From assembly GCA_021773795.1 (NCBI GenBank), contig JAJFJT010000026.1, positions 1 through 64,000 of the forward strand: a stretch of 64,000 nucleotides of DNA, read 5' to 3'. Positions 4,147-37,251 of the stretch are shown piece after piece. The translations under genes were made by a program, and so were the position numbers. The notes below the pieces were generated by a model. The model was not told the DNA's origin. It did not search any database and saw only the letters and a list, made by a program, of their open reading frames with translations. Position 1 is the stretch's first letter, and each line of letters begins with the position of its first letter. The DNA comes from Gammaproteobacteria bacterium. Its GTDB lineage: Bacteria > Pseudomonadota > Gammaproteobacteria > HK1.

Positions 4147-4167
4147 GGCGGACACGATCCGCCCTAC
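4147..4167 (-). repeat. Single REP sequence
   Basis: A 21-bp imperfect palindrome reading GGCGGACACGATCCGCC then CTAC. It belongs to the REP family seen around the RAYT gene at 28340-28873. It lies in the 323-bp gap between yajD and the SPFH gene. The rest of that gap holds only the hairpin at 4369-4393 and no frame I can support. Confidence 0.75.
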
Positions 4168-4368: not shown

Positions 4369-4393
4369 GTCGGGTTACGCTGCGCTAACCCGA
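4369..4393. repeat. Short inverted repeat GTCGGGTTA/TAACCCGAC
   Basis: A 9-bp perfect stem around CGCTGCG, followed by CTAC. Similar 'cgggttacgctgcgctaacccg' hairpins are dispersed in many proteobacterial genomes. It lies 30 bp past the stop of the SPFH gene and could end its transcript, although no T-run follows. Confidence 0.5.
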
Positions 4394-4422
4394 CCTACGA
4401 GAGCCGGATCCCCGCAACCACC

Positions 4423-13469: not shown

Positions 13470-13532
13470 GGCGGACACGGTCCGCCCTACATGATTCCCG
13501 ATGGAGTGCCCGTAGGGCGGACCATGTCCGCC
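13470..13532. repeat. REPIN: inverted pair of REP sequences
   Basis: GGCGGACACGGTCCGCC-CTAC at 13470-13490 and its inverted partner GTAG-GGCGGACCATGTCCGCC at 13512-13532, 21 bp apart. Inverted REP pairs of this kind are the mobile unit of RAYT transposases, and the sequence matches the REPs that bracket the RAYT gene at 28340. The 416-bp gap between moaA and xerD is filled by this pair and the two elements that follow. Confidence 0.8.
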
Positions 13533-13591
13533 AACCCAACTCTAGCGAAGTGTTGAAGACGCCTCAGGCGAGTACAAGACAAGGCAAAATT

Positions 13592-13682
13592 TGTGCAAGG
13601 ATGCGCTTATGCCGCGAGGGCATGGTCACTCTCGCGCATCCCTGTGCTTCGTGACATAAGGCCATCCTTGGCCAAAGATGCC
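13592..13682. repeat. Family-4 'CTTATGTCGC' repeat, copy A
   Basis: A 91-bp stretch with inverted halves (GCGCTTATGCCGCGAGGGCATGG and the later GTGACATAAGGCCATCCTTGG). Its right half is nearly identical to pieces at 15223-15259, 23571-23627 and 46668-46733, the last inside gltX. It is preceded by the family signature GGCGAGTACAAGACAAGGCA at 13568. Confidence 0.75.
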
Positions 13683-13716
13683 GAGGAGTACTCCACCAAC
13701 CCAACTCTACCAAAGA

Positions 13717-23420: not shown

Positions 23421-23643
23421 AGAAAAATTTTCAGGCGAGTGCAAGACTAGGCAAAAATTCTGTACAGGGATGTACTTATGTCGCGGTGGCATGGATGCCA
23501 AGAAGCGGCGCTTGGCAGGGATGTACTTATGTCGCGGTGGCATGGATGCCAAGAAGCGGCGCTTGGCAGGGTCGCTCTCGCACATCCCTGTGCTTTGCGA
23601 CATAAGGCCATCCGTGGCCAAAGTGCCGCATGAGAATTTTTCT
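23421..23643. repeat. Family-4 repeat, copy B, with a 51-bp tandem duplication
   Basis: A 223-bp element with inverted ends (AGAAAAATTTTCAGGCG and its near complement). It carries the GCAAGACTAGGCAAAAA signature, then the CTTATGTCGC region. A 51-bp unit (23467-23517) is repeated exactly at 23518-23568. The right half, TGCGACATAAGGCCATCC at 23597-23614, matches copy A. The right arm overlaps the radA stop codon by two bases. Confidence 0.8.
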
Positions 23644-25705: not shown

Positions 25706-25726
25706 GTAGGGCGGACCATGTCCGCC
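25706..25726 (+). repeat. Single REP sequence
   Basis: GTAG followed by GGCGGACCATGTCCGCC, identical to the copies at 13512, 28222 and 37186. It starts 14 bp after the stop of the DUF1451 gene, a typical REP position. Confidence 0.8.
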
Positions 25727-26880: not shown

Positions 26881-26946
26881 GTAGGGCAGGGCAGGCCATG
26901 CCTGCCGCACATTAAACGCCCATTCGGCGGGCACGGCCCGCCCTAC
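26881..26946. repeat. REPIN with variant REP sequences
   Basis: A left copy GTAGGGCAGGGCAGGCCATG-CCTGCC (26881-26906) and an inverted partner GGCGGGCACGGCCCGCC-CTAC (26926-26946). Both keep the CTAC tail but have changed stems that remain self-complementary. The pair lies 22 bp after the DUF547 gene. Confidence 0.7.
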
Positions 26947-26950
26947 ACAA

Positions 26951-27000
26951 GCGCCGCTCCTTGGCATCCATGCCATCGCGGCATAAGTGCGTCCCTGCAC
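26951..27000 (-). repeat. Family-4 repeat fragment, copy C
   Basis: On the minus strand it reads GTGCAGGGACGCACTTATGC, then CGCGATGGCATGGATGCCAA, which matches the left half of copy B (23461-23515) with few changes. It directly abuts the terminator of the PEP-CTERM gene. Confidence 0.7.
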
Positions 27001-28221: not shown

Positions 28222-28298
28222 GTAGGGCGGACCATGTCCGCCTAAAAAGAAGCTCTGATTATTACCGCCATTAAGACGGCGGACACGGTCCGCCCTAC
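28222..28298. repeat. REPIN next to the RAYT gene
   Basis: GTAG-GGCGGACCATGTCCGCC at 28222-28242 and the inverted GGCGGACACGGTCCGCC-CTAC at 28278-28298, 35 bp apart. It ends 41 bp from the stop of the RAYT gene. Confidence 0.85.
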
Positions 28299-28339
28299 GA
28301 GTCCGTATCCAGCGCACCGTGCGCCAGAAACGCTACCGC

Positions 28340-28873
28340 CTACTCACCAAAATGGCCATCCATTTTATCGGGTGGAATATCGCCCCACGTCTCGGGATAT
28401 TTTCCTTCGCTCACATAACGGTGAAAACTGGAGAAAGGCCAATCCGCCACCCGTGTGACATGCTCATGCTTTACCGGATTCCAGTGCAGATAATCCAGAT
28501 GTCCGTGCAGATCCCGCTGGTCACGAATGAGATGCTCCCAATACCGGGATTGCCAAATCCCGAGTTTCCTCCGTTGTCCAGGGATAGCCGGATTATCAAC
28601 ACCCTGAATAGCCTGACTGGTCAGGCGTTTAATCATTGACCAGCGATTGGGATAGTCGGCGTCATCGGGCGGCAGTGTCCAGATGCAATGTAAATGATCC
28701 GGGAGCAAGACCCAGGCATCGATATTAAATGGGTGTGATCGGCGAACAGAATTTATTGCAGCACGCAAGGCGGTGCGGAGTGACGGTATGGTGAGGATTG
28801 GATGTCGTTTCCAGCTAACCAGTGTGAAGAAATAGCAGCCACCTAGAACACGGGCTCGACGATAGTTTGGCAT
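28340..28873 (-). CDS. rayT: REP-associated tyrosine transposase (RAYT)
   Basis: A 177-residue Y1 (HUH) single-strand nuclease. The metal-binding HUH motif is His60-Leu-His62 in LLPDHLHCIW, and the catalytic tyrosine is Tyr128 in DYLHWNPVKH. Both lie in the arrangement of RAYTs, which cut REP hairpins and are thought to move REPINs. The gene is intact and bracketed by REP sequences (28278-28298 and 28903-28923), the usual single-copy RAYT layout. About ten more copies of the same REP are scattered in the window, which suggests that it has been active in this genome. Confidence 0.92.
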   Translation of the reverse strand: MPNYRRARVLGGCYFFTLVSWKRHPILTIPSLRTALRAAINSVRRSHPFNIDAWVLLPDHLHCIWTLPPDDADYPNRWSMIKRLTSQAIQGVDNPAIPGQRRKLGIWQSRYWEHLIRDQRDLHGHLDYLHWNPVKHEHVTRVADWPFSSFHRYVSEGKYPETWGDIPPDKMDGHFGE

Positions 28874-28902
28874 CTGACATCCTTGTCATTGTGGTGATGA
28901 AT

Positions 28903-28923
28903 GGCGGACATGGGCCGCCCTAC
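28903..28923 (-). repeat. REP upstream of the RAYT gene
   Basis: GGCGGACATGGGCCGCC followed by CTAC, 29 bp before the RAYT start codon and in the same orientation as the REP at 28278. Together they bracket the gene. Confidence 0.8.
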
Positions 28924-37185: not shown

Positions 37186-37251
37186 GTAGGGCGGACCATG
37201 TCCGCCATTGCTATGGCGTGGCGAGGCTGAGGCGGACATGGTCCGCCCTAC
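37186..37251. repeat. REPIN between recB and recD
   Basis: GTAG-GGCGGACCATGTCCGCC (37186-37206) and inverted GGCGGACATGGTCCGCC-CTAC (37231-37251), 24 bp apart. The pair would fold into a large stem in the recB-recD message and could reduce recD expression or protect recB mRNA. Confidence 0.85.

Follow-up and report, generated by a model that had tools for sequence, protein, structure and literature searches.

A probable REPtron, a single-copy RAYT gene with its own dispersed GTAG-tagged REP hairpins, in a small uncultured genus of Gammaproteobacteria

We consider it highly probable (roughly 0.9) that the DNA analysed here, a window of 64,000 nucleotides, carries a REPtron, namely, a domesticated single-copy RAYT gene and the dispersed GTAG-tagged REP hairpins that belong to it, passed on vertically within a small genus of uncultured Gammaproteobacteria. 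The genome from which the window derives (G000; 2.56 Mb in 36 contigs) was compared with those of the other two species of the genus, the metagenome-assembled gammaproteobacteria OFTM67 and OFTM98 (G001 and G002), and the counts given below were obtained by pattern searches and from fetched stretches. The gene and the REP sites of the window are as follows.

28340..28873, minus strand: RAYT (TnpA_REP) gene, 177 aa, with HUH residues H60/H62, catalytic Y128 and a C-terminal GHFGE tail
28903..28923, minus strand: REP on the upstream side of the RAYT start, with a single mismatch in its stem; a REP occupies this position in both sister species too
28222..28298, plus strand: REPIN downstream of the RAYT, two head-to-head REPs with a 35-nt spacer; arms 96% complementary, fold z = -6.7
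37186..37251, no strand assigned: REPIN with two perfect arms and a spacer of 24 nt; G001 has the orthologue, G002 does not
26886..26946, no strand assigned: REPIN whose stems, GGCAGGC and GGCGGGC, are variants; both G001 and G002 have its orthologue, and the stems differ between species by compensatory changes
13470..13532, no strand assigned: two REPs tail-to-tail and 21 nt apart, their GTAG tags pointing inward; G002 has no REP at the corresponding place
25706..25726, plus strand: single REP; G001 and G002 have REPs at the corresponding position
4147..4167, minus strand: single REP with the innermost stem pair mismatched; G002 and G001 likewise have REPs at the corresponding position

The initial annotation described the RAYT gene as intact, with an HUH motif at His60/His62 and a catalytic Tyr128, and inspection of these residues bears this out. 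The encoded protein matches NCBIfam NF047646 (REP-associated tyrosine transposase) with 183 bits against a cut-off of 80, and its score for Pfam Y1_Tnp lies just under the threshold (22.1 versus 23). The PDB contains a single relative by sequence, the TnpA_REP 4er8 (deposited as 'TnpArep for protein'), to which the protein aligns over nearly its full length (E = 1.3e-40), Y128 pairing with the Tyr of the VDY motif. With an HUH motif and a single catalytic Tyr, it is a Y1 HUH protein related to IS200/IS605. One orthologous copy is present per genome at the same syntenic place in all three species, 83% identical to the window RAYT in both of the others, within a conserved gene order and with REPs on both sides. 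Between species its dS (0.69-0.83) is like that of the neighbouring genes (0.47-1.07), and its dN/dS is 0.11-0.13. Judged by synteny and by dS, the gene is thus single-copy and vertically inherited and shows no sign of mobility of its own; purifying selection maintains it as it would a host gene.

Each REP comprises a GTAG tag and a 7-bp stem closed by a 3-nt loop. A search of the window with GGCGGACCATGTCCGCC, allowing up to 3 mismatches, gave 17 matches where 0.29 were expected, and none of 100 shuffles reached 17; many palindromes are scored once per strand, so that these matches, with a degenerate arm at 26886 added, make up 11 distinct REP arms. Their palindromes start at positions 4147, 13470, 13516, 25710, 26886, 26926, 28226, 28278, 28903, 37190 and 37231. 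The earlier claim of ten or more matching REPs across the window is thereby upheld, and the coordinates given for them were mostly right, except that the arm placed at 26881 actually occupies 26886-26906 and has the tag GCAG. The REP sequence had been said to be the same at all sites; the family is indeed shared, but the REPs at 4147 and 28903 each have a stem mismatch. The gaps of the four inverted pairs (21, 19, 35 and 24 nt) agree with the range of 19-35 bp first reported, although the pair at 13470/13512 is tail-to-tail, so that the usual REPIN orientation is found in three of the four. On the upstream side of the gene, 30 bp separate the RAYT start codon from the REP at 28903; the 28222/28278 pair is on the downstream side, and a REP was also found at the place matching 28222..28298 in G001 and G002. 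In single-strand DNA folding, a single REP hairpin reaches -8.1 kcal/mol, which none of 200 shuffles equalled, and REPINs folded as one long hairpin formed from two inverted REPs, with z = -6.7 and -8.4. According to open reading frame coordinates, all sites in the window fall between likely genes, several of them just downstream of one. A scan of the window against Rfam returned three tRNAs only and no match to the repeats.

The whole-genome count called for in the initial annotation gave 48 tagged copies in G000 (up to 2 mismatches; 0 for a reversed control pattern) and, among the sites scanned, 19 REP pairs, 14 head-to-head and 5 tail-to-tail. Across the three species of the genus there are 48, 77 and 34 tagged copies. 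The remaining 35 of the 38 genomes searched contain none, so that we found no relative with this REP family in the absence of a matching RAYT, an association that is confounded with relatedness because all three species of the genus carry both. GC-rich intergenic hairpins could in principle be ordinary rho-independent terminators or unrelated palindromes. This reading is extremely improbable, and we reject it, because the sequence and the GTAG tag are shared across sites; the head-to-head pairing, the absence of a consistent T run after the stem and the contrast between 48 copies and 0 in 35 relatives also speak against it.

Does this RAYT pair with this REP? Several lines of evidence bear on this. 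First, a RAYT more than 80% identical to that of the window was found in the same three genomes only, of the 38 searched. Second, of the four RAYTs in G000, that of the window alone is flanked by the window REP family; two others (C26:70276-70799 and C23:376-996) are flanked by GTAGGTCGGRTTAGCG...GTAAYCCGAC palindromes. Co-occurrence in exactly the same 3 of 38 genomes, taken together with the different palindromes of the other RAYTs, supports the pairing. Third, in a sample of 45 RAYT loci drawn around one query, each with a GTAG hairpin whose 7-bp stem is perfect, REP distance tracks RAYT distance (Mantel r = 0.55, reached in 0 of 2000 permutations). A different RAYT as driver of the family was considered and set aside, in that the other three RAYTs of G000 stand beside other palindromes and none has better-matched flanking REPs. 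The window RAYT is therefore supported by sequence comparison as the best and only candidate partner of the family, and GTAGGGCGGACCATGTCCGCC is most likely its single-stranded REP substrate, as predicted by analogy with related systems. The nearest RAYTs outside the genus (55-60% identical) mostly carry GTAGGGTGCGCCATGCGCACC, in which the tag, stem length and loop are the same and the stem is different. Among them, the RAYTs of the Undibacterium RAYT/REP pairs (L092-L094 and L097) are 57-60% identical to ours; their REPs share the tag, the stem length and the CAT loop, whereas the stem is GGTGCGC instead of the GGCGGAC of the window family.

The other RAYTs of G000 merit a brief description. 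The REP kind set beside the C26 and C23 genes is of the GTAGGTCGG type. The family to which these palindromes belong (GTAGGTCGGRTTAGCG...GTAAYCCGAC) occurs in the window at 4369-4398 and has 19 exact copies in G000 and 0 in G001 and G002, both of which also lack the C26 and C23 RAYTs; this second family and its RAYTs were likely gained by transfer or else lost in the sister species. Copies also occur in G014 and G016, where no RAYT was detected. The fourth RAYT (C11:11413-11907) has an in-frame TGA and a third kind of flanking palindrome (ATCCGGGCTAC type), and is a decaying REPtron.

The REP hairpins themselves covary. With a pattern that specified the tag, the left arm, the loop and only the first base of the right arm, full pairing was seen in 116 of 134 hairpins, and an exactly compensating right arm accompanies 45 of the 61 non-consensus left arms. 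Since loci were fetched with up to 2 mismatches in total, uncompensated single changes were not selected against. At 26886, for example, the window has GGCAGGC...GCCTGCC and G001 has GGCAGAC...GTCTGCC. Such abundant compensatory change argues that the hairpin itself is maintained, and the single-strand DNA folding agrees.

How old are these sites? Of the 33 REP sites of G000, at least 15 are syntenic with a REP site in G001 and at least 7 in G002; both values are lower bounds because only REP-bearing stretches were fetched and the scan was strict. In the 11 orthologous site pairs that were aligned, the REP arms are 95.5% identical, a value biased upward because the sites were chosen for REPs in both species, and 8 of 19 arms are wholly identical; the spacers and 40-bp flanks at the same pairs are 73.1% identical. 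Identical stems thus persist across the divergence of the species (dS about 0.7-0.8), and they are found at sites that predate the split, such as 37186/37231 and G000 C8:33891, where the spacers and flanks have diverged.

We considered whether the hairpins now serve mainly a host role, at transcript ends, in mRNA stability or in DNA topology, with the RAYT adding little or nothing to their distribution. The contrast between the arms (95.5%) and the spacers and flanks (73%), the compensatory changes, as if the hairpins were selected in place, and the location of several sites just downstream of genes would all fit such a role. We nevertheless regard this as somewhat unlikely, for the RAYT is under purifying selection and is bracketed by matching REPs in each of the three species, and the GTAG tag, which forms no part of the stem, is unaltered in 47 of 52 G000 arms and in 65/72 and 33/35 arms in the other two species, in a scan that admitted at most 1 tag mismatch. 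A REPtron whose RAYT and REPs are retained together remains the reading that we prefer.

The initial annotation went further and proposed that this RAYT drives the family and has been active recently, on the grounds that several stems are identical. Its role as partner of the family stands; the recent activity is not supported, because many of the identical stems are old and shared. Present activity of the RAYT, with the identical copies as its recent products, is in our judgement unlikely. Many stems are identical in sequence and some sites are unshared: the REPIN at 37186/37231, both arms of which are identical in G001, is missing from G002, and the flanks of 13 of the 33 G000 sites are absent from the REP-bearing stretches fetched from G001. 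The former is missing along with some 90-100 bp around it, so that gain and loss are indistinguishable. Against this reading, identical stems stand at orthologous sites amid diverged spacers and flanks. The spacers are also mostly unshared between loci, with a loose common pattern in part of the REPINs, so that the moving unit may be either a single REP or a pair. The only near-identical REPIN pair (G000 C13:10241 and C24:4312) was examined as a fresh copy event. The surroundings of both match G002 C16:48.4-49.4 kb, which favours segmental duplication, and their immediate flanks are no longer alike; these REPINs are best read as lying in a duplicated segment and not as transposed. Turnover of REPs since the common ancestor is clear, and no event can be dated as recent from these data. 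A recent burst of transposition is unsupported, since identical stems sit at orthologous sites.

Some of the REPs lie next to, or are interrupted by, other repeats. In the sister species, REP hairpins split in the loop by a second repeat of small palindromes (GCTCTCCGGCATCCATGCCGTCGCGGCATAAGTNCATCCNTGNACAAAA) were observed at G001 C4:505506-505552 and C4:506290-506336 (L025, L241, L267) and at G002 C5:42277-42345 (L243, L266) and C3:13980-14026 (L240). A search for such junctions returned 4 in G001 and 4 in G002, and the same search found none in the genome of the window. Free copies of this CATCC-type repeat occur in the window at 23472-23550 (in tandem), at 26963-26990, 17 bp from a REPIN, and at about 13590-13700; its core is present in 12 to 16 copies per genome in the three species, and it matched no Rfam family at the gathering threshold. 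G001 has about 1.2 kb of additional DNA beside a REP pair at C4:508.7-510.2 kb, the place that matches window position 25706; from its length, this DNA may be an insertion sequence. Tandem arrays of mixed REPINs, with GGCGCAC and GGTGGAC stems, are found at contig ends in G001 (C3:5-296 and C8:27-158), where the assembly probably broke within a REP array.

How might the window RAYT act on its REPs? TnpA_REP proteins bind the single-stranded REP and not its complement; they use the catalytic Tyr to cut at CT or CA beside the hairpin, they join strands, and the GTAG tag matters for cutting (PMC8266576); moreover, REP abundance depends on the cognate RAYT (PMC3686654). By analogy, the RAYT described here would most likely bind the REP hairpin in its single-stranded form, with the GTAG tag, the stem and the loop as points of contact. 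Its Y128 would then cut next to the hairpin, the strand being rejoined afterwards, and this cut-and-rejoin reaction may on rare occasions copy or move REPs or REPINs into intergenic sites. The reaction and the low rate of movement are both inferences from studies of other RAYTs. What has been published on the family (PMC8266576, PMC8049555, PMC3686654, PMC3733652) agrees with the present case, which matches the picture of domesticated, vertically inherited RAYTs.

Among known systems, TnpA_REP of the Escherichia coli REPtron Ec (group 2; PMC8266576) resembles the window RAYT over the full length of the protein, with HUH and Tyr at matching places, a C-terminal tail ending in GE and GTAG-tagged REPs flanking the gene. 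In contrast, the REPs of E. coli are long with an obligatory bulge, whereas the window family has a perfectly paired 7-bp stem and a loop of 3 nt. In this respect it is like the group 3 REPtrons of Stenotrophomonas maltophilia and Marinomonas (PMC8266576), the REPs of which are short and perfectly paired, with GTAG and a short loop, although the group 3 proteins, compared here by their description, lack the C-terminal tail that the window RAYT has. In published work, a C-terminal tail goes with bulged REPs, as in group 2, and the lack of a tail with perfect REPs, as in group 3 (PMC8266576). In our query-centred sample, an E. coli-like C-terminal GE tail is present in 40 of the 45 RAYTs with perfect 7-bp REPs, and we tentatively raise the possibility that GE-tailed RAYTs use short perfect hairpins, such that the published division by tail and bulge would not be general. 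The REPINs of Pseudomonas fluorescens SBW25 (PMC3116915) are likewise inverted REP pairs that are linked to a RAYT and form long hairpins with less conserved spacers, but the present family numbers tens and not hundreds of copies, with spacers of 7 to 49 nt and both pair orientations common. As far as the portions of the GTAG super-family description considered here extend (PMC3733652), that group shares the GTAG tag, a 6-9 bp stem, a short loop, sub-families with compensatory stems, head-to-head and tail-to-tail dimers, and RAYTs flanked by their own REPs; the window REP stem does not appear in those portions, and it may equal one of the 24 families of the super-family.

The genus studied here provides a clean three-species example, in an uncultured lineage, in which REP sites can be traced at orthologous positions. 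It follows from these sites that identical REP stems are no guide to recent transposition: at old sites common to several species, the stems remain similar even as the sequence around them diverges.
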